From contig NZ_JAMHGA010000013.1 of assembly GCF_023660105.1 (NCBI RefSeq), forward strand, positions 1 through 64,000: 64,000 nt of DNA, written 5' to 3'. Positions 41,576 through 52,564 of the stretch are shown here, one piece after another. The first letter of the stretch is position 1, and every line of letters begins with the position of its first letter. This stretch comes from Desulfovibrio aminophilus. GTDB taxonomy: Bacteria; Desulfobacterota; Desulfovibrionia; Desulfovibrionales; Desulfovibrionaceae. Both the position numbers and the translations under genes were made by a program. The notes beneath the pieces are model-generated. The model was given only the letters and a program-made list of their open reading frames with translations, did no database searches and was not told the DNA's origin.

Positions 41576-42634
41576 TTGCCGCCCGACATGCCGACACCGA
41601 CGCCCGACATCCGGGTCCCGATCAAGATTTTCCCCACCATCCGCGCCACCGCCGTGCTCGGACTCTTCGAGCTGGTGGAAAGCACCAAGCAGCTGGATTT
41701 CATCTTCCGCAAGTCCGGGGTCAATCCCCGCCAGGTGCGCGACCGGCAGCAGGAGATCCCCCTGTCGAGCTTCCTGCTCATCCTGGCCAACGCGGCCCAG
41801 TCCACGGACGACGGCGCGCTCGGCCTGCACCTGGGGCTCAAGAGCCAGCTCCCGGACCTCGGCCTGCTGGGCTACATCATGCTCAACGCGCCCAACGTCT
41901 ACGAGGCCCTGCGGCAGATGGTGCGCCACTACAACTACCACCAGCGCGGCGCGGAACTGACGCTGGAGCCCTCGGGCGACACCGTGCGCCTCGTCTACGG
42001 CCTCTCATCCCGGACCGAGCACCTCGGACGGCGGGAGGACGCGGAGATGAGCCTGGCGAGCTACTTCTCGTTCATCAAGGACATGGTGGGCATGCCGACC
42101 TTCCCCGCCGAGGTCCACTTCGAGCATCCGGAACCGCCCTACGGCGGCGAGCACATGCGCCTGTTCCGCTGCCCGGTCTGGTTCTGCCGCCCGGAGAACG
42201 CTCTCGTCTACAAGAAGACCAGCCTGTTCCGGCCAGTGGCCAGGGCGGACAACGAACTCTTCAAGGTGCTCCTGGACTACATGGCCCGGCTGGCCAGCGA
42301 ACGCCCGCGCGAGGAGGACCTGGTGGGCCACGTGCAGTTCCACCTGGCCAAGATGCTGCGCAACGGCAGCCTCGACTTCGAACGCCTGGCCTCCATCCTC
42401 GGGGTTTCGAGCCGGACCCTGCGGCGCAGGCTGGCCCGGGAGGGCGTCCGCTTCCACGAACTGGTGGGGCGGACCCGCCTGGAACTGGCCCGGGACTACC
42501 TGACCCAGCCGAGCATGACCGTCACGGAGGTGGCCTATCTGCTCGGCTACACCTCCCCCTCCTCGTTCTCCCGCGCGCTGCGCAGGCAGACGAACATGAC
42601 GCCGAGCGAGTTCCGCCGCAAATTCAACCGCTGA
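41576..42634 (+). CDS. AraC-family transcriptional regulator
   Basis: This 352-residue regulator has an N-terminal arabinose-binding-like domain of the OruR/ArgR type (about 15-200; LGYIMLNAPNVYEALRQMVRHY) and a C-terminal pair of helix-turn-helices (SLDFERLASILGVSSRTLRRRL and MTVTEVAYLLGYTSPSSFSRALRR, with the typical end MTPSEFRRKF). The TTG at 41576 lies five bases after GGAAGGAA; an ATG at 41588 is the alternative. It is convergent with the agmatine operon and is the natural candidate for its regulator; relatives respond to ornithine or arginine. Confidence 0.87.
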   Translation: MPPDMPTPTPDIRVPIKIFPTIRATAVLGLFELVESTKQLDFIFRKSGVNPRQVRDRQQEIPLSSFLLILANAAQSTDDGALGLHLGLKSQLPDLGLLGYIMLNAPNVYEALRQMVRHYNYHQRGAELTLEPSGDTVRLVYGLSSRTEHLGRREDAEMSLASYFSFIKDMVGMPTFPAEVHFEHPEPPYGGEHMRLFRCPVWFCRPENALVYKKTSLFRPVARADNELFKVLLDYMARLASERPREEDLVGHVQFHLAKMLRNGSLDFERLASILGVSSRTLRRRLAREGVRFHELVGRTRLELARDYLTQPSMTVTEVAYLLGYTSPSSFSRALRRQTNMTPSEFRRKFNR

Positions 42635-42652
42635 GGCCCAGAAAACAGGAAA

Positions 42653-42676
42653 GGGGAGACGCCGGAACGTCTCCCC
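42653..42676 (-). terminator. Terminator of the agmatine operon
   Basis: A perfect nine-base stem (GGGGAGACG/CGTCTCCCC) with a six-base loop lies between the AraC stop and the carbamate kinase stop. On the minus strand it is followed by TTTCCTGTTTT, so it should end the agu transcript. Confidence 0.75.
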
Positions 42677-42707
42677 TCGGGCGGGGGGTATGGAGAAGGA
42701 ACCGGCT

Positions 42708-43643
42708 CTAGGCCGGGTACCACTCCAGGCCTTGGGCGGCGCGGTCCACGCGGGTCCCGGCCGAGCCGTCCAGGATGTCGTCCAGATGATCCAGGGAGCC
42801 GATGACCGCCGTGTTGCCGGTGGCCTCCACGAACTCGCAGGCCGCCTCGATCTTCGGGGCCATGGAGCCGCCGGCGAAGCCGTAGCCGCAGAGGGCCTCG
42901 GGCGCGGCGCGCCGCAGGGGCGTGGCGCCCTCCTCGCCCCAGTTGGTGTACACCCCATCCACGTCGGTGAGGATGACGAGCATGTCGGCCTTGAGCTCCC
43001 GGGCCAGCAGGGAGCTGACCCGGTCCTTGTCGATGACCGCCTCCACGCCGTGAAGCCGTCCGTCCTCGCCGTACATGGTGGGGATTCCGCCGCCGCCGGA
43101 GCAGATCACGATGATGCCGTGCTCCAGCAGGAGGCGCACGCTGTTGACCTCGAAGATGCGCTTGGGCGAGGGCGAGGCCACGACCCGCCGCCAGTAGGCG
43201 TTGTCCGGGGCGATGGTCCAGCCGTGCAACCCGGCCAGGCGCTCGGCCTCGGCCTTGTCGTAGACCGGGCCGATGGGTTTGGTGGGCTTGTCGAAGGCCG
43301 GGTCGGCCGGGTCGACCTCCACCTGGGTGAGCAGGGTGGCGAAGCCCCGGTCGGGCAGTTCGTTGCCCATCTCCTGTTCCACGAGATAGCCGATCATGCC
43401 CTCGCTCTGGGCTCCGAGCACGTCCAGGGGCCAGGCGCGGGGGTCGGCGCCCCCGGCGCTGGCCTGCAGGGCCAGGAGCCCGACCTGCGGGCCGTTGCCG
43501 TGACTGATGACCAGCTCGTGCTTCCGGGCCACGCGGGCCAGGGCCTTGGCGGCCCGGGCCATGTTGTGGCGCTGGTTCTCGGTGTTCATCGGCTCGCCGC
43601 GGCGCAGCAGCGCGTTGCCGCCCAGTGCTATGACGATGCGCAT
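42708..43643 (-). CDS. aguC: Carbamate kinase
   Basis: This 311-residue enzyme makes ATP from carbamoyl phosphate and ADP, giving ammonia and CO2. It shows [11 protein letters not shown] at the N terminus, [15 protein letters not shown] for carbamoyl-phosphate binding, [10 protein letters not shown] and VDGVYTNWG, then [13 protein letters not shown]. The length is typical. It is the last gene of a four-gene operon in the order of enterococcal aguBDAC, so the agmatine pathway rather than arginine deiminase is the likely supplier; arcC would be the name in the latter case. Confidence 0.92.
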
Positions 43644-43659
43644 CGCTTCGTGCTCCCGT

Positions 43660-44760
43660 CTAGCCCCGGTGCGCGGGCACCTGCTGGGTGATGCAGTGGA
43701 TGTTGCCGCCGCCGAGCAGGATCTCGCGCGCGTCCACGCCGACCACCTCGCGCTCCGGGAAGAGCGCGCCCAGGGTTTCCCGGGCCTGATCGTCGTAGCG
43801 CGCGTCCAGGAGCGGGAAGACGATCCGGTCGCGGGCGATGTAGAAGTTGACGTAGGACCCGGCCAGCCGGTCCCCGGGCAGGCGGGAGAGGGTGCCGTCC
43901 ACGGCGTCCACGCCCCGCGACTCCTCGTCGCTGATGAAGATGGGGCCGGGCTGGTGGATCTTGTGGATCTTCAGCTTGCGGCCCCGGGCGTCCACGGCCT
44001 GGGTGAGGACCCGCTGGGCCTCCGAGGAGATGGCGTACTGCGGGTCGCTCTCGTCGTCGGTCCAGGAGAGGAGCACCTCGCCGGGGCGGACGAAGCAGCA
44101 GAGGTTGTCCACGTGGCCGTCGGTCTCGTCGTTGTAGACCCCCTTGGGCAGCCAGATCACGGTCTGCACGTTCAGATAGGCCTTGAGCACGTCCTCGATC
44201 TCCCCCTGGGACAACTCGGGATTGCGGTTCTTGTTCAGCAGGCACTGGGCCGTGACGAGCAGGGTGCCCTCGCCGTCCACATGGATGGAGCCGCCCTCCA
44301 GGACGATGGGCGCGCGGTAGCGGTCGCAGCCCTCGATCTCGATGACCTTGCGGGCCACCTGATCGTCCTTGTCCCAGGGGAAGTAGAGGCCGCCCTCCAG
44401 GCCGCCCCAGGCGTTGAACTTCCAGTCCACGCCCCGCATGCCGCCGTCGCCGTCCACCACGAAGGTCGGGCCGCAATCGCGCATCCAGGCGTCGTTGTTG
44501 CTCATCTCCACCACCCGCACCCGGCTGTCGAGCAGCTGGCGGGCGTTCTGGAACTGTTCGGCCGAGACGGCCATGTTCACGGGTTCGCTTGCCGCGATGG
44601 CCGCGGCCACGTCCGCGAAGGCCTGCTGGGCGGGCTTGGCGCCCCAGCGCCAGTTGTCCGCGCGTTCCGGCCAGATCATCCAGCAACCGTCGTGATCCTC
44701 GAATTCAGCGGGCATCCGGAACCCGTCGTCGCGGGGAGTGCCGGAGAGCGTCTTGCACAT
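43660..44760 (-). CDS. aguA: Agmatine deiminase
   Basis: This 366-residue enzyme hydrolyses agmatine to N-carbamoylputrescine and ammonia. The guanidino-group-modifying fold is shown by [31 protein letters not shown] (Glu-Gly-Gly), [10 protein letters not shown] with the catalytic His, and [11 protein letters not shown] with catalytic Cys356. ATG 44760 has AAGGAG eight bases upstream; upstream in-frame codons would lie in the gap. It is encoded between the antiporter and carbamate kinase. Confidence 0.94.
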
Positions 44761-44788
44761 GGTCTTTCTCCTTTCCTCTGGCCGCCGC

Positions 44789-46201
44789 TCAGGCGGCGCG
44801 GACACGCGGCTCGGCCTCGGCCGCCGCGTGGTTCTTGTTCTTCACGGCCCGGCGCACCATGACCTCGCCCGCCGCCAGGGTCAGGACGATGCCGATGAGC
44901 ACGGGCAGGCTGTAGCTCCACTCGATCTCGCCGGTGGCCGCCTTGGGGAAGATGAACAGGATCACGGCCTGGATCACGAAGATCGTGGGGATCACGGCCG
45001 CGATCAGGGCCAGGGCGGGACCGCCGGGCACGCGGAAGGGCCGGTGCTCGGCCGGGGCGATGCGGCGCAGCCGCAGGAAGGCGGGGAACATGAACAGGTA
45101 CGGCAGCAGGAAGATGCAGGAAGAGAAGGCGAACAGGGTCCAGAACAGCTCGTCGTTGCTCCCGGCGATGACGCCGTAGAGCACGATCACCGTGGTCGAG
45201 ACCATGCCGGTGACGAGGTTCGCGCCCCTGGGCGCCCCGGTCTTCGGATCCACCTTGCCGAACAGGGCGGGCAGCTCGCCCTCGGCCGCGGCCTCGGCCG
45301 CGGCGCGGTTGGCGCCCATGCACCAGGTGACCATGTTGGTCACGAAGGTGAACAGGGCGAAGACGCCGAGGACCACGACAGCGGCCGACTCCTCGCCGAA
45401 GAGCATGCGGAAGGCCTCGACGATGCCGCTGACCAGGCCGATCTTGTCCACCGGCAGGGCCAGAAGGAGGCCGATGGTCCCCAGGATGTAGAGCAGGGTC
45501 ACCGTGACGGCGGCCGTGAAGATGGACTTCGGCACGTCCCGGTGCGGGTCGCGGATCGCCCCGCCCATGCAGGAGACCAGCTCGAACCCGAGGAGGTTGA
45601 AGATGATGGCCGGCAGGAAGGCCAGTCCGGAATCCAGCGAGGGAATCATCGTCGCCGGGGTGATCTCGTTGGCCACGCCCTTGGTGGCGGCCAGATAGAA
45701 TCCGCCGCCGCCCAGGGCCACGATGATGACCACCTTGGCCAGGGCCCCGAGGTTGGGCACGAGCTTGCCCTGGTCCACGGAGATGTCGCAGATGCCCACG
45801 GTGATCCAGGTCAGGACCACGCCGATGGCGATCTGGGCCCAGAGGTTCAGCTCGGGGAAGAAGAGCTGGCTGAACATGCCCGCGAAGAGGATGAAGACCG
45901 CGGGCATCCAGAGGGCCACGTTGATCCAGTAGTACCAGGTGGTGCGCACGGCCCAGCGGTAGCCGAAGGCGCGCTTGATCCAGTCGTAGATCCCGCCCTC
46001 GCCGGGCCAGGTGGTGCCCAGCTCCGAGGCGATCATGCCGTAGGGGACCACGAAGAAGACGAGCGTCAGGCACCACCAGGTGATGGAGGAGGGCCCGATG
46101 CGCGCGGAAGCGGTCAGCGTGTCGATGACCAGGACCGCGCAGACGCTGAACAGCGTCAGGTCCACGGCGCCCATCCCCTTGGTCTTGCTTTCCTTGGACA
46201 T
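44789..46201 (-). CDS. aguD: APC-family amino acid antiporter (agmatine/putrescine)
   Basis: This 470-residue membrane protein has about 12 helices. [20 protein letters not shown] and [27 protein letters not shown] are signatures of the amino acid-polyamine-organocation family. From its place in the operon it should exchange external agmatine for internal putrescine. I start at ATG 46201, six bases after AAGGAG; the ATG at 46216 lies before that site. The cytoplasmic C terminus is basic. Confidence 0.88.
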
Positions 46202-46256
46202 GGCAGACTCCTTCATGCCGCGGGGGGGCGCGTGATGCGCCCCGGCCGCGTGCGTG

Positions 46257-47276
46257 TTAGTTGTCCCAGCCCCGGGAGCGGAGGAACGCCCTGGTCTGGT
46301 CCGCGTAGTACTGCCCGAGGGCCCCGTCGGCCCTCTTCAGCGTGGGGGCGACAAGCCAGGCCAGGATGCCCTTCTCGGCGTGCAGACGGTTCTCGGCCTG
46401 GTCGAAGATGATCGAGCGCGGGGAATCCAGGATCTCGTCGGTGGCCTCCACGCCCCGCGAGGCGGGCAGGCAGTGCATGAGCTTGCAGTGCGCCGGGGCC
46501 CTGGAGAAGAGCTGCCCGTTCACCTGGTAGCGGGGCATGAAGGCCTTGCGCCGGTCCGGAATCTCGGCCTCCTGGCCGCACCACCACCAGAGGTCGGTGT
46601 AGATGATGTCCGCCTCCTGCACCGCCTCCTCCACGTTCTCGGTGATGGTCACGCTGCCGCCGTACCTGGCGACGTTGGCCCGCCCGATCTCGACCCAGGC
46701 CTTGGGGGCCTGGTAGGCCTTGGGCGCGGCCTGCGTGAAATCCATGCCCATGAGCGTGGTGGCGAAGAGGGTCGAACTGCAGACGTTGGTGGCGTCGCCG
46801 ATGAAGGTGACCTTCAGGTCGTGGATGGTCTTGCCCGCGGGCAGGTGCTCCCGCATGGTGAACAGGTCGCACAGGGCCTGGGTCGGATGGTTGTAGTCCG
46901 TGAGGCCGTTGATCACCGGCACCGTGCTGTGCTTGGCCAGCCCGAGGATGGTCTCGTGCTTCCAGCAGCGCGCCACGATGACGTCGCACATGCGCGAGAG
47001 GACCCGCGCGGTGTCGGCCAGGGATTCGCGCTCGCCGAGGTGGATCTCGCCGGGCTTGAGGTAGAGGGCGTGTCCGCCGAGCTTGGTCGCGGCCACCTCG
47101 AAGGAAACGCGGGTGCGCGTGGACGGTTCCTCGAAGATCATTCCAAGAGAGGCGCCGTCGAGCAGACGAGGGGTGCGGCCGCCCTTGTCGGCGACCTTGA
47201 GGAGCCGGATCAGCTCCAGGACGTCCAGGATCTCCTCCTGGGAGAAATCGTAGACATGGATGAAGTTCTTGGGCAT
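46257..47276 (-). CDS. aguB: Putrescine carbamoyltransferase
   Basis: This 339-residue transcarbamylase phosphorolyses carbamoylputrescine to putrescine and carbamoyl phosphate. FEEPSTRTRVSFEVAA binds carbamoyl phosphate, DYNHPTQALCDLFTM follows, and the ornithine-side loops differ from ornithine carbamoyltransferase: YQVNGQLF and HCLPASRGVEATDEI, as in putrescine enzymes. The start ATG 47276 has AAGGA nine bases upstream and gives the usual length. It is the first gene of the operon. Ornithine carbamoyltransferase is the alternative, disfavoured by the neighbours. Confidence 0.88.
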   Translation of the reverse strand: MPKNFIHVYDFSQEEILDVLELIRLLKVADKGGRTPRLLDGASLGMIFEEPSTRTRVSFEVAATKLGGHALYLKPGEIHLGERESLADTARVLSRMCDVIVARCWKHETILGLAKHSTVPVINGLTDYNHPTQALCDLFTMREHLPAGKTIHDLKVTFIGDATNVCSSTLFATTLMGMDFTQAAPKAYQAPKAWVEIGRANVARYGGSVTITENVEEAVQEADIIYTDLWWWCGQEAEIPDRRKAFMPRYQVNGQLFSRAPAHCKLMHCLPASRGVEATDEILDSPRSIIFDQAENRLHAEKGILAWLVAPTLKRADGALGQYYADQTRAFLRSRGWDN

Positions 47277-47332
47277 ACTCGTGCGTCCTTGCGCCACCGG
47301 CGCATGTTTCGATGGTTGCGTTTCTCCGTGCC

Positions 47333-47830: not shown

Positions 47831-47853
47831 ATCCAAGACACGATATATTGGAT
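47831..47853. promoter_or_regulatory. Palindromic operator before the peptide gene
   Basis: ATCCAA-N11-TTGGAT is a perfect inverted repeat around CGATATATTGG, which contains a possible -10 box (TATATT). It is 54 bases before the peptide start, in an AT-rich pocket. Confidence 0.4.
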
Positions 47854-47906
47854 TTCAAATAGCGTCCGCCCCCCCAGCGGCCGCCCAAGCAAATGGGAGG
47901 TGACCC

Positions 47907-48176
47907 ATGCCCGCCAAAGGATTCAAGCTTGTGTCGGTAGCCGGCGACCTCGGCGTTTGTCACGGCCACGGCCACTATCACACCAGCGCCACGGTCGTGC
48001 TCAAGGACGTCCACAAACTGATCGATGGCCTCACCGCCAAGGCGGCCTCCACGGAAGAAAAGCAGGACATCGCCAACCAGGCGCGGACCCTGCTGCAAAC
48101 CATTGAGGGAGTGGAGCATATCGAGGCGATGAGGGCGCTCTCCAATGCGCTCCGAGAGAAGATCGCCAAGCTGTGA
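47907..48176 (+). CDS. Small Cys/His peptide, candidate radical-SAM substrate
   Basis: This 89-residue protein has a single cysteine in a compact motif, CHGHGHYH at residues 18-25, followed by a helix-forming, Lys/Glu/Ala-rich part (about 34-89) with no further Cys. ATG 47907 has GGGAGGTG upstream. It ends 64 bases before a radical SAM/SPASM gene, so it is probably the substrate peptide; the modified segment would be near the N terminus, unlike most ribosomal peptides in which the leader comes first. It recalls the annotated CbpA/CbpB peptide-maturase pairs, but I cannot verify this. A small metal-binding protein is the alternative. Confidence 0.65.
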   Translation: MPAKGFKLVSVAGDLGVCHGHGHYHTSATVVLKDVHKLIDGLTAKAASTEEKQDIANQARTLLQTIEGVEHIEAMRALSNALREKIAKL

Positions 48177-48240
48177 GGAGTCGGCCGACGGCGGGGGGCC
48201 AGCCGCCTCCCGCCCGACCGCTGGTAACGACGCCCTCGCC

Positions 48241-49596
48241 ATGACCTCGACGGACAGTTCCCGAGACACCTATCTCCGGCCCCTGCGGGACGGCGCTGTC
48301 CTGATTCACGCTCCCAGCGTCACCTGGGCCGTCTCCCCCGATCCGGCCGAGTTGGAAGACCTCGCTTTCGACGAGGTGGACCTGCTCCGCGCCCGCGAAA
48401 ATATTTTGCGGGACAGAAGGACCAACCGCATCGACCAGGTGGAGCTCCACCTCACCGACCGTTGCAACATGCGTTGCCGCTATTGCTACGTCCCGCTGGA
48501 GATGCGGTCACGCGCACCCGACCTCGCATACGCGGACGTCCGAAAAATCCTCGCGGACGCCCGCGCGCTGGGCGCCCGCCAAGGGGTGTCGCCGGTCATC
48601 CACTTCCACGGGGGAGAGCCCGGCCTCGCGGCCCCGCTCATGCGCCACATCGTCGAGGAACACCATCGCGAGTTCACCTTCGTGGTCCAGACCAACGGCA
48701 CCGTGCTCACGGATGAGGACATCGCCTTCCTGCTCGGATATGGGGTGGAGATCGGCCTGTCGCTCGACGCGCTCGGCGAAACCGACGCCGACATACGCCG
48801 GGGAATCAGCAAGTCACGCGTTCTTCAAAGCCTCCAGACCATCCGCCGCATCAAGGGAACCGCGCCGAACGTGATCGTCACGGCCAGTTCGGCCAATGTC
48901 CCCACCCTGCCCGACACCGTGAGGGGGTTGCACGGACTCGGCGTCTCCAGCCTAACGATCAACCCCGTCCTGCCCTATGTCCCTCTGCCGGAAGACATCA
49001 TCCCGGAGCAAACGGAACTCACCCGCGCCTATCTCGAATGTGTGGATTTCGCCCTCGGAACCGTGGCGGACCGGAGCCGCCCGCTCTTCATCAACAACAT
49101 GGAGTCATTCGCCATCTCCATTCTCACCAGCCGATCCTCCAGCTATTGCGAAATGAGCCCTTGCGGGGCTGGGCGCATGATTCTCGTGGTGGATTCCCAG
49201 GGCCGGGTTTTCCCCTGCTCCGGCCTCATGGCCAATCAGGAATTCTGCTGCGGGAGCGCCCTCGATCCCCGGACATCCCTCGCCGACCTGCTCGACTCGC
49301 ACCCGATCAAAGTCCTGCAAACCAGGCGATGCGCCGAATTCTCCCCCTGCAGCAACTGCCCCTACCGCGAAATCTGCGGAGCCAACTGCCCGATTCCGGA
49401 CATCAACGCGCGCGGGGACACGGCGAAGCCCTCTCCCTGGTGCGGCCTGCGCCAAGCCCTCATCGACACCATCTTCAACCATGCAATCCAACGGCCAGAC
49501 GCGATTCTCGACTTCATCAGCCACGAGACCCAGGCAAGCCTCCTCGGAGCAGAACTGAAGCCCGCCGTTTTCCGCTCCCCCTCCCCGGCCCATTGA
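48241..49596 (+). CDS. Radical SAM/SPASM peptide-modifying enzyme
   Basis: This 451-residue enzyme has the radical SAM cluster CNMRCRYC (Cys75, Cys79, Cys82), the SAM-binding HFHGGEPGL, and a C-terminal SPASM domain holding extra iron-sulfur clusters: CEMSPCGAG (303, 308), GRVFPC (326), and a CX2CX5CX3C run (CSNCPYREICGANC, about 370-383) with a final WCGL. The N-terminal about 65 residues may bind a peptide. SPASM enzymes of this design install thioether or other links in ribosomal peptides. ATG 48241 lacks a clear ribosome site. Codon use is less GC-biased than in neighbours, hinting at transfer. Confidence 0.88.
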   Translation: MTSTDSSRDTYLRPLRDGAVLIHAPSVTWAVSPDPAELEDLAFDEVDLLRARENILRDRRTNRIDQVELHLTDRCNMRCRYCYVPLEMRSRAPDLAYADVRKILADARALGARQGVSPVIHFHGGEPGLAAPLMRHIVEEHHREFTFVVQTNGTVLTDEDIAFLLGYGVEIGLSLDALGETDADIRRGISKSRVLQSLQTIRRIKGTAPNVIVTASSANVPTLPDTVRGLHGLGVSSLTINPVLPYVPLPEDIIPEQTELTRAYLECVDFALGTVADRSRPLFINNMESFAISILTSRSSSYCEMSPCGAGRMILVVDSQGRVFPCSGLMANQEFCCGSALDPRTSLADLLDSHPIKVLQTRRCAEFSPCSNCPYREICGANCPIPDINARGDTAKPSPWCGLRQALIDTIFNHAIQRPDAILDFISHETQASLLGAELKPAVFRSPSPAH

Positions 49597-49668: not shown

Positions 49669-50823
49669 ATGCCCAATCTTCTGCTCATCGTGCTTCTGGC
49701 CGCCTTCCCGGCCCTGTCCACGGACATGTACCTGCCCGCCCTGCCCACGCTGCAGCGGCTCTGGGGCGCGTCCCTGGCCGAGGTGAACCTCTCCCTGCTG
49801 TTCTTCTTCCTCTGCTTCAGCCTCTTCCTGCTCGTCCACGGCCCGCTCTCCGACCGCTGCGGCCGCAAGCCCGTGCTCATCGCGGGCATCCTGCTCTTCA
49901 TGGCCGGAAGCCTGCTCTGCGCCGCCTCCCAGTCCATCACCCAGCTCGTGCTGGCCCGCATGGTCCAGGCCACGGGCGCGGCCGCCGCCTCGGCCCTGTC
50001 CCTGGCCCTGGCCAAGGACCTCTACTCCGGCATCCAGCGCCAGAAGATCCTGGCCTACATCGGGGTCATCGTGCCCCTGTGCCCCATGCTCGCGCCCATG
50101 CTCGGCGGCCTGCTCCTGGGCGTGGCCTCCTGGCGGGCCATCTTCCTGGTCCAGTGCGTCCTGGCCCTGCCCGCGTTCTACGGCTGCCTGCGGCTCCGGG
50201 AGCCCGCGTTCGAGCGCACCTCCGGCGGCCCCCTGGCCATGCTCCGGCGCTACGGCGTGCTCCTGCGCAACCGGCGCTACCTCGTCCTGACCCTGTCCTT
50301 CTCGCTCATGTCCGCCGGATTCTTCGCCTATATCGGCGGCTCGGCGGACATCTTCATCACCGGCTTCGGCCTGGGCGAACGGACCTACGCCCTGTTCTTC
50401 GGCTTCAACGCCCTGGGCCTCATGGCCGGATCGCTCCTGGCCTCGCGGCTCTGCGTGGGCCTGTCCTCGGCCGGCCTGCTCAACGCCTCCCTGGCCGGGC
50501 TGGCCGGGGGCGGCGCGGCCATGCTCGCCGCCGGAGGCCACGGGCCCTGGGGCTTCGCCCTGCCCATGTTCGCGGTCTCGCTCTTCCTGGGCATGAACCG
50601 GCCCATCAGCAACAACATGATCCTGGACGCGGTGGAGCGCGACGTGGGCGCGGCCTCGGCCGTGATGACCTTCGCCAACTTCCTCGTGGGCGGCCTGTGC
50701 ATGGAGGTCGTCTCCCTGGACCTGCTGCCCAAGCCCCTGTTCATCGGGGCCCTGACCCTGGCCGGGACCCTCGTGCCCCTGGCCGCGCTGTTCCTCCTGG
50801 GCCGCCCGCGCCGGAGGACCTGA
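49669..50823 (+). CDS. MFS exporter, Bcr/CflA type
   Basis: This 384-residue membrane protein has about 12 helices; STDMYLPALPTLQ in the first helix and GPLSDRCGRKPVLIAG between helices 2 and 3 are typical of the Bcr/CflA drug-resistance group. It would export small molecules by proton antiport. It begins 72 bases after the radical SAM gene in the same direction, so export of a modified peptide product is conceivable, though these pumps usually move small drugs. Confidence 0.9.
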   Translation: MPNLLLIVLLAAFPALSTDMYLPALPTLQRLWGASLAEVNLSLLFFFLCFSLFLLVHGPLSDRCGRKPVLIAGILLFMAGSLLCAASQSITQLVLARMVQATGAAAASALSLALAKDLYSGIQRQKILAYIGVIVPLCPMLAPMLGGLLLGVASWRAIFLVQCVLALPAFYGCLRLREPAFERTSGGPLAMLRRYGVLLRNRRYLVLTLSFSLMSAGFFAYIGGSADIFITGFGLGERTYALFFGFNALGLMAGSLLASRLCVGLSSAGLLNASLAGLAGGGAAMLAAGGHGPWGFALPMFAVSLFLGMNRPISNNMILDAVERDVGAASAVMTFANFLVGGLCMEVVSLDLLPKPLFIGALTLAGTLVPLAALFLLGRPRRRT

Positions 50824-50902
50824 GCCCGCCTCCGCGATTGCGCGCTTCACTGGCGGCGTGCTAGGCTGCGTGGTCGCCGGGCCATCCGGCCCGGTCCACC
50901 CC

Positions 50903-52564
50903 ATGAACGAACGCGAAGCCGCCCTCCTCCGGCTCCACGGCGACCGCACCAGCTCCCTGGCCGCCCTGGGCCCCCTGTTCCAGAGCCATGTCCCGCCGGA
51001 CCTGGAGGGAGTGGTGCGTTTCCTGAAGACCTCCGGGGCCCTGGTCGCGGCGAACGAGCCTCTCTGCGCCCCGGAGCACCGCGCCCGGGCCCTGGCCTCC
51101 CTGGCCGGACGCGCCAGGGAACAAGGCAGGCGCTTTCTGGCCATGCCCCTGGGCGCAAGCCTGGCCTCCGAATTGAAGGCCCTGGGCTTCACGGTCTGGA
51201 GGATCGGCGCGGAGCCGGTGTTCGACCTGGAGCGCCATTTCGCCCTGGCCCCGGACCCCCTGCTCCAGTTTCCCCTGGCCCGGGCCCTGGCCCGGCGCGG
51301 GGCCGAGGTGCGCGAACTGCGGCCCGAAGACCTGGCCGACGCCGCGCTCCGGGACGAAATGGAGCGGGTGGCGCGGCTCTGGCTGGCGGACAAGGACTGC
51401 CCGCCCCTGGGTTTCCTGATCCGGTCCGCGCCCCTGGAATCGGCCGGGGCGAAGCGTTTCTTCACCCTGCGCGTGCGCGGGGAGCTGCAGGCCTTCCTGG
51501 CCGCCGCGCCGTTCTTCCGCCGGGGCGAAACGCTCGGCTTCTACCTCCAGGACATCCCCCGCCTGCCCCAGGCGCGGGCCGGAGCCTGCGACCTGCTCGT
51601 GCTGGAGGCCATGCGCCTGCTGCGCGCCGACGGGACGGCCGAGGTCCGGCTGGGGCTCGCGCCCCTGGCCCGCATCCCCGGCGACGCGCCGGGCGGGCGG
51701 CTGCTCGGCCTGCTCTTCCGCCACTGGACCCTGGGCTACAACTTCCGCTCGCTCCACGACTTCAAGGAGAAGTTCCACCCCACCCGCTGGGATCCGCTGT
51801 ACCTGGCCTCAAGCAGCCCCTCGCTGGTCCGGGCCCTGGCCGACGCCGTGGCCGCCCACCTGCCGGACGGCGCGGGCCGCGCCCTGGCCCAGGCCCTGCT
51901 CCGGCCACTGGCCCCTGCCCTGGAGACGCGGCCCGAGGCCCCGGCCCCCCGCCCCTGCCCCCGCGACCTCGGGGAATACCTCCGGCGCACCCGGCTGACC
52001 ACGCTCTGCGTGCTCCTGTTCACCGGCCTGCACCTCCTGCGGCTCGCCTGGCCGCCGCTGGACGCGCTCTTCACCTCCTCGGCCTACGCGCCCGGGGACG
52101 TGACCTGGCGCGGCCTGCTGCTGGGGCCGCTGTTCCACAACCACTGGTTCCATCTCACGGGAGACCAGCTCTCGTTCTACGCCTTCGGCTGCATCGTGGA
52201 GATATTCCTCGGCCCTGCGGCCTTTCTCCTGCTCACCGCCGGGGGGCTCTGGCTCTCCAACCCCCTGACCCAGGCCCTCCTGGCGGCGGTGCTGCCCTGG
52301 GCCGCGCCCGGGGCCTGGGCCGCCACCCTGGGCGAAAGGGACTACGGCTCCAGCAACGCGGTCTTCGCCCTGGCCGGGGCCGCGTCCGCCATCCTGGTCC
52401 GGGGCCGCCTCCTGCTCGTGCCCTTCGCGCTCTACGGCCTGTTCATCTGCCTGGCGCGCCAAAGCTGGCTGGCCCTGCACCATCTGGTGACCCTCGGCGC
52501 GGGCTGGCTGGCCCTGCGGCTGGTCAGCTCCCGAAGGCCTCGCGGGCCGCGTCCAGGCCGTTGA
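50903..52564 (+). CDS. DUF2156 acyltransferase-like domain fused to rhomboid-like domain
   Basis: This 553-residue protein has an N-terminal DUF2156 domain (about 5-300; LKALGFTVWRIGAEPVFDLE, GFYLQDIPRLPQARAGACDLLVLEAM, GYNFRSLHDFKEKFHPTRWDPLYLA), as in the C-terminal part of lysyl-phosphatidylglycerol synthases, which are GNAT-fold transferases. Residues 385-540 form five or six helices with rhomboid features: HNHWFHLTGDQLSFYAFGCIVE, YGSSNAVFAL (GXS serine Ser484) and LALHHLVTLGAG (His526/527). The start is uncertain: ATG 50903 or GTG 50858, both without strong ribosome sites. The 3' end overlaps the convergent gene by 41 bases. Confidence 0.75.
   Translation: MNEREAALLRLHGDRTSSLAALGPLFQSHVPPDLEGVVRFLKTSGALVAANEPLCAPEHRARALASLAGRAREQGRRFLAMPLGASLASELKALGFTVWRIGAEPVFDLERHFALAPDPLLQFPLARALARRGAEVRELRPEDLADAALRDEMERVARLWLADKDCPPLGFLIRSAPLESAGAKRFFTLRVRGELQAFLAAAPFFRRGETLGFYLQDIPRLPQARAGACDLLVLEAMRLLRADGTAEVRLGLAPLARIPGDAPGGRLLGLLFRHWTLGYNFRSLHDFKEKFHPTRWDPLYLASSSPSLVRALADAVAAHLPDGAGRALAQALLRPLAPALETRPEAPAPRPCPRDLGEYLRRTRLTTLCVLLFTGLHLLRLAWPPLDALFTSSAYAPGDVTWRGLLLGPLFHNHWFHLTGDQLSFYAFGCIVEIFLGPAAFLLLTAGGLWLSNPLTQALLAAVLPWAAPGAWAATLGERDYGSSNAVFALAGAASAILVRGRLLLVPFALYGLFICLARQSWLALHHLVTLGAGWLALRLVSSRRPRGPRPGR

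Follow-up and report, generated by a model that had tools for sequence, protein, structure and literature searches.

The stretch of Desulfovibrio aminophilus DNA analysed here, the first 64,000 nucleotides of contig NZ_JAMHGA010000013.1 (hereafter the window), carries a gene for an 89-residue protein which is followed on the same strand by a gene for a radical SAM/SPASM enzyme. The features of this locus are:

47831..47853, no strand: palindrome ATCCAA-N11-TTGGAT, an exact match, unsupported as a regulon operator
47895..47903, plus strand: ribosome-binding site GGGAGGTGA of the putative substrate gene, recognised in the sequence before the ATG
47907..48176, plus strand: putative substrate gene, an ORF of 89 aa with a relative that is 42% identical
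47958-47960, plus strand: codon of Cys18, which is Ala in the relative
47961..47984, plus strand: codons of HGHGHYHT (residues 19-26), identical in both known members
48241..49596, plus strand: putative radical SAM/SPASM maturase, placed as a sister of CbpB by TIGR04163 score, tree and 11 Fe-S cysteines

The single cysteine of the 89-residue protein is located at position 18, inside the sequence CHGHGHYH, and 64 bases separate the stop codon of its gene from the ATG at 48241, the best start of the enzyme gene. Pfam analysis of the enzyme identified Radical_SAM (75.9 bits) and SPASM (22.7 bits) domains, both above their gathering scores, and, counting from Met48241, the CX3CX2C motif is formed by C75, C79 and C82 and the SPASM set by C303, C308, C326, C370, C373, C379, C383 and C401. 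An initial annotation of this DNA had described both the small protein with its one cysteine and the enzyme with CX3CX2C and a full SPASM cysteine set 64 bases downstream; the ORFs, the sequence, the cysteine positions and the Pfam matches agree with this description, and overall its observations on the window were partly confirmed and its interpretation of the pair partly supported. The CX3CX2C motif and SPASM cysteines together with an adjoining small gene are the general marks of a radical SAM/SPASM peptide maturase, and all of them are present here. An N-terminal RRE is common, though not universal, in such maturases; no RRE or PqqD-type domain was matched in the enzyme by Pfam at E<=1, and the AF2 model of the enzyme was poor (47.9).

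A second pair was found in a genome of another genus (G264), where the window enzyme as query gives 365 bits over residues 14-442, with 40% identity, and where the enzyme gene is preceded, across a gap of 38 bases, by a gene for an 88-residue protein that is 42% identical to the window protein, the order and orientation of the two genes being the same. The 89-residue ORF is a real gene, given a relative that comes with the same partner. When the window's family was searched with the enzyme, 14 of 288 genomes gave matches, namely the window's own, G264 and 12 CbpB-like matches at 134-172 bits and 29-33% identity, so that an enzyme at the level of the pair is present in 2 of the 288; order-wide, 2 of 348 genomes were at this level, with no third, and 12 more were at CbpB level. 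A profile of the two small proteins matched 10 of 285 family genomes, two of them convincingly (171 bits), and these are the two pair genomes. The remaining eight matches, at 18-23 bits (G004, G046, G259, G260, G278, G161, G213, G235), were taken as chance: the six with a locus (L160-L165) lie inside longer frames, those of L160-L163 on the strand opposite one long conserved gene, presumably encoding prolyl-tRNA synthetase, with a start that is alike in all four, and those of G213 and G278 were dropped by score alone. Five of the eight come from the genus of G264, yet kinship was rejected as the matches that were fetched sit in longer frames. Each gene of the pair was thus found only where the other is present (2/288 and 2/285, n = 2 loci), and this, with the same gene order in another genus, favours the substrate-maturase pair that had been proposed at the outset, although two genomes that share a pair of rare genes make weak statistics.

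The distribution of the pair is patchy. Neither gene was found in two genus-mates of the window genome (G028 and G060), and five other genomes of the genus of G264 gave no enzyme at E<=1e-30. Larger collections were searched with general patterns or in samples of the window's phylum. In a phylum sample of 395 genomes the enzyme reached E<=1e-35 in 35, of which every one except the window's own genome was at CbpB level (1e-51 to 1e-62), and the small protein matched two, the second (G430, 18 bits) being a chance match in a 298-codon frame. At class level, samples comprising 42 and 55 genomes yielded enzyme matches at E<=1e-60 that were all CbpB-level, and a third sample, with 29 genomes, had no enzyme match at E<=1e-63. 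Plasmids yielded one CbpB with the enzyme and nothing with the small protein, phages only enzymes at 22-26% identity, and viral contigs no relatives. A search of genome contigs with the small protein found no relatives, and the corresponding search with the enzyme alignment used two very general patterns that gathered at least 80 loci of mixed radical SAM enzymes and says little on rarity; a six-frame check of the loci gathered by then revealed no further HGHGHYHT-type gene. Third-position GC in the window is 0.80 and 0.81 for the pair as against 0.89-0.97 for seven neighbouring genes, and in G264 it is 0.66 and 0.66 as against 0.67-0.83 for seven genes. By eye, from ORF lists, G028 has the genes left of this spot and the downstream MFS gene in the same order with the 41.6-49.6 kb segment absent, and its DNA homology with the window resumes at 49588, the end of the enzyme gene. 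Acquisition of the pair by sideways transfer would fit the patchy distribution, the GC contrast and the segment missing from G028. Left of the pair, at 41576-47297, lie an AraC-type regulator gene and then, on the minus strand, genes for an amino-acid-kinase (carbamate-kinase-like), an agmatine-deiminase-like protein (PAD_porph), an amino-acid antiporter and a putrescine/ornithine carbamoyltransferase, which together resemble an agmatine fermentation operon; by eye, these genes are also absent from the matching spot in G028.

Downstream of the enzyme gene lie a Bcr/CflA-type MFS efflux gene (49669-50823) and, close behind it, a gene (50858-52564) for a 568-residue protein with an LPG_synthase_C match of 104.5 bits and a rhomboid-like second half (18.2 bits, below the gathering score of 22.6). 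Such an arrangement might suggest a secreted antimicrobial RiPP which is cut and then exported by the MFS protein, with the LPG-synthase/rhomboid-like protein as a tailoring enzyme or protease. The MFS gene, however, is present in G028 and G060 (86% and 70% identical), where the pair was not found, homology with G028 begins right at the end of the enzyme gene, the MFS homologue of G264 is on a different contig from its pair, and at the G028 spot there is no counterpart of the 50858 gene, all of which makes this the least probable of the explanations considered. Both genes were rejected as parts of the system on comparison with G028, and neither exporter nor protease is counted in it because the MFS gene is resident in the genus-mates and off-contig in G264. 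Inspection of the G264 locus by eye, with Pfam analysis of five neighbours, found no protease or exporter beside the pair; as the MFS gene is in addition a resident one, nothing points to cleavage or export. Nothing but the pair itself was seen to be shared between the neighbourhoods of the two loci.

The palindrome at 47831-47853, which had been read as an operator, is present as described, and its role as an operator is less secure: it is unique in the genome when up to one mismatch is allowed, and no similar palindrome was seen by eye before the gene of the G264 relative. Three inverted repeats, each 6+6 or longer, occur in the 125-base stretch that contains it, and among 2000 simulated sequences 38% had at least one such repeat and 7% at least three, while among 511 tiles of the window itself 286 had at least one and 80 at least three. 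An operator of a regulon was rejected in view of the unique site and the near-chance frequency; a local operator is conceivable but unsupported. A promoter scan found no sigma-70-like site, and the four terminator-like sites detected are all on the minus strand.

Among NCBIfam families TIGR04163 (CbpB) matches both enzymes best, at 220.1 bits for the window enzyme and 193.5 bits for that of G264; the cut-off is 375, and 711.9 bits were obtained for a true CbpB. True CbpBs above the cut-off are present in 10 of 149 genomes of the window's family, at 667-712 bits. The nearest other relatives of the enzyme, at 28-33% identity, are also CbpB-type and are peptide maturases by NCBI's name. In a tree of 47 radical SAM/SPASM enzymes the two pair enzymes group together (support 100/100) outside the clade of 22 CbpBs (100/100), as a separate sister group of it (88/85), a placing that is only moderate because long branches meet at this node, as was flagged by the tree program. 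Comparison with 40 CbpB loci (L004-L013, L114, L118, L125-L148, L155-L158), picked by enzyme similarity, showed that the 11 Fe-S cysteines invariant (95% or more) in the 40 CbpBs are all present in the window enzyme and that both pair enzymes retain the residue of 51 columns fixed in at least 95% of the CbpBs but share another residue in 26 such columns, as would be expected for a changed substrate. A CbpA-type peptide (GLSHY or a close variant) is located beside the enzyme at all 40 loci (33 of 36 by pattern and 3 by eye as SHF or AHY, then 3 by pattern and 1 annotated), a count which leaves out the CbpB-level matches in G233, G235 and nine phylum-sample genomes; TIGR04164 confirmed both of the two CbpA peptides scanned. 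As the nearest relatives are CbpB-type and have CbpA beside them at all 40 loci examined, acting on an adjacent small product looks ancestral.

The pair resembles CbpA/CbpB in that a small gene lies directly before a radical SAM/SPASM enzyme with the same 11 Fe-S cysteines, and in that the conserved part of the substrate has His-Tyr shortly after Gly (GLSHY as against GHGHYH), a shared feature which is only suggestive. A strongly diverged yet ordinary CbpA/CbpB system would account for these likenesses and for the sister position in the tree, but the pair enzymes remain far below the CbpB cut-off, and neither small protein matched any NCBIfam family at E<=10, TIGR04164 included. When the CbpA profile was set against that of the small protein, 3 columns were aligned at a probability of 0.2%, and homology of the two was rejected on this basis. 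The substrates also differ in size and composition, as those of the pair have 88-89 residues with HGHGHYHT, a helical tail and, in one of the two, no cysteine in the motif, whereas CbpAs have 29-50 residues (21 aligned), a cysteine and GTGLSHYI; the conserved block of the pair substrate, strand and core together, is about the length of a whole CbpA. A cobalamin riboswitch, a trait seen in these loci that is outside NCBI's definition of Cbp, was detected at 37 of the 40 CbpB loci (8/9, 15/16 and 14/15) as against 0 of 2 pair loci even at a relaxed threshold, the latter giving only sub-threshold matches of other families, which suggests that regulation of the pair, and its substrate too, probably differ from those of Cbp. 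We therefore regard a diverged Cbp system as quite improbable, and of the initial assignment to CbpA/CbpB-type pairs the nearest named family stands while membership does not, given an enzyme below the cut-off and the lack of CbpA and of a cobalamin riboswitch. Among the matches listed in a literature search there was no study of Cbp chemistry, and TIGR04163 was in no paper text searched.

In a two-row alignment of the window protein with its G264 relative, HGHGHYHT is an exact match whereas Cys18, directly before it, is Ala in the relative with all eight following residues kept. Cysteine chemistry is consequently not a conserved feature, contrary to the stress that had been placed on this residue. 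The conserved donor cysteine of sacti- and ranthipeptides is thus missing, and although one cysteine does adjoin the His run of the window protein and PapB (NF047865) is among the better-scoring families of the enzyme (109.2 bits, below the cut-off of 340), a thioether peptide formed through Cys18 is very improbable; PapB is likewise a radical SAM/SPASM enzyme, but its thioether cysteine is unconserved in the pair substrate. HxsB (TIGR03978), the second-best family, matched at 113.8 bits for the window and 119.2 bits for G264, short of its cut-off of 370. HxsB and HxsC of the His-Xaa-Ser system are mentioned in an excerpt of PMC9062424, and from that excerpt the likeness consists of a SPASM-type maturase and a His-containing substrate motif, whereas the pair substrate has HG repeats and no HxS repeats. 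The window enzyme scored 58.5 bits against QhpD (TIGR03906; cut-off 453), which, according to an excerpt of PMC8326336, is the radical SAM enzyme of quinohaemoprotein amine dehydrogenase that crosslinks a non-RiPP protein; the likeness is by analogy only, in a radical SAM enzyme that acts on a non-RiPP protein, while QhpD forms thioethers from Cys and no dehydrogenase genes were seen beside the pair. HGHGHY was in no paper text searched, and no such text joins radical SAM, Desulfovibrio, RiPP and precursor peptide.

Conservation between the two small proteins is concentrated towards the N-terminus, with 17 of 22 columns identical in residues 5-26 as compared to 19 of 63 in residues 27-89 (Fisher p 1.6e-4, with the boundary picked after seeing the data), and the maximum-window conservation statistic was equalled in 17 of 2000 shuffles of the two proteins. 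The tail after residue 26 is helical and more variable. The initial annotation had seen an odd order here, with a recognition segment following the core; the pattern of conservation, highest over the first 26 residues, gives this order no support and makes it likelier that a recognition strand precedes the core. In an excerpt of PMC8326336 the leader of CteA is described as binding the RRE of CteB as a beta strand, and by analogy GFKLVS could be a strand bound by the pair enzyme, albeit with no RRE detected in that of the window. The AF2 model of the 89-residue protein (mean pLDDT 69.5, two-row alignment) predicts a hairpin (6-11/14-19) and helices at 28-45, 49-67 and 73-88, which suggests a folded three-helix protein, and places HGHGHYHT between the hairpin and the first helix, at the same weak confidence. 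Pfam gave nothing better than E 0.23 for this protein, and when the two-row profile was compared with PDB sequences no match rose above chance level (best E 0.19). With the model as query, Foldseek gave a best E of 1.2 and none below 0.001, a result from which a new fold should not be deduced. The best match in a VIA fold search was the C-Ala domain of alanyl-tRNA synthetase (Z 7.1), followed by 14-3-3, BAG and designed bundles, matches that may merely reflect a common arrangement of helical bundles.

The HGHGHYHT loop is likely a modified or a metal-binding site. Were it the latter, the small protein could be a metal- or cofactor-binding partner or carrier that delivers a metal or an intermediate while the enzyme acts on a small molecule or another protein. 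The alternating His motif, which to us looks like a metal site, and the predicted three-helix fold would be in keeping with such a role, as would a tungsten-cofactor maturase among the family matches of the window enzyme (80.8 bits). At the G264 locus (L123:4490-9239) the pair is convergent with a gene for a sigma-54 response regulator, behind which lie genes for a histidine kinase, DUF4405 and Metal_resist, a possible hint of a metal link at this one locus. Such metal-related neighbours are, however, found at one of the two loci only, and the enzyme's nearest family by far consists of peptide maturases that have a peptide encoded beside them, for which reasons we consider a carrier unlikely.

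The explanation that we favour, with a probability of roughly 0.6, is that of a dedicated substrate-maturase pair, sister to Cbp, in which the enzyme modifies the HGHGHYHT loop without recourse to cysteine and the product is likely intracellular. The SPASM enzyme would recognise the N-terminal strand (GFKLVS...) of the 89-residue protein and, using a 5'-deoxyadenosyl radical and its auxiliary Fe-S clusters, would modify the loop that follows, with Tyr24 or one of the His and Thr residues next to it as the most likely site. Genes for cleavage or export do not accompany the pair, and for this reason the product is most likely retained in the cell, where it would be a small helical protein whose modified His/Tyr cluster, on display, would serve in metal or redox function; such intracellular metal or redox work is the favoured role of the loop and at the same time the weakest step of the proposal. 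Points against the explanation are that two loci are known, that neither an RRE/PqqD domain nor CbpA homology was detected, that the AF2 models scored 69.5 and 47.9, and that long branches are joined in the tree. If it is right, the pair presents a new type of SPASM maturase substrate, in which a small folded protein that lacks a conserved cysteine is targeted at its His/Tyr loop, and a testable sister to CbpA/CbpB, and a comparison of CbpB acting on GTGLSHYI with the sister enzyme acting on HGHGHYHT could reveal shared chemistry. A more far-reaching proposal, which we find doubtful, is that of a new class in which a radical SAM enzyme places a cysteine-independent link or oxidation in the His/Tyr loop of a small folded protein and so gives a ribosomally made intracellular metal/redox cofactor-protein, for example one whose metal site holds a His-Tyr crosslink; this class would stand apart from Cbp, Hxs and secreted RiPPs.

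The Cbp loci themselves provided some further observations. Control of the Cbp system by B12 is supported by the riboswitch at 37 of 40 loci and by the gene upstream at two of the other three (L130 and L131), where cbiC (precorrin-8X methylmutase) lies just before cbpA. In the window's own genome two neighbouring stretches (L002 and L003, contig C1, at about 49.7-52.5 kb) match the CbpB model weakly, at 49.5 and 46 bits, and are probably two additional radical SAM genes. A Methylovirgula plasmid carries one of the CbpB loci (L158), in the vicinity of pqq genes.
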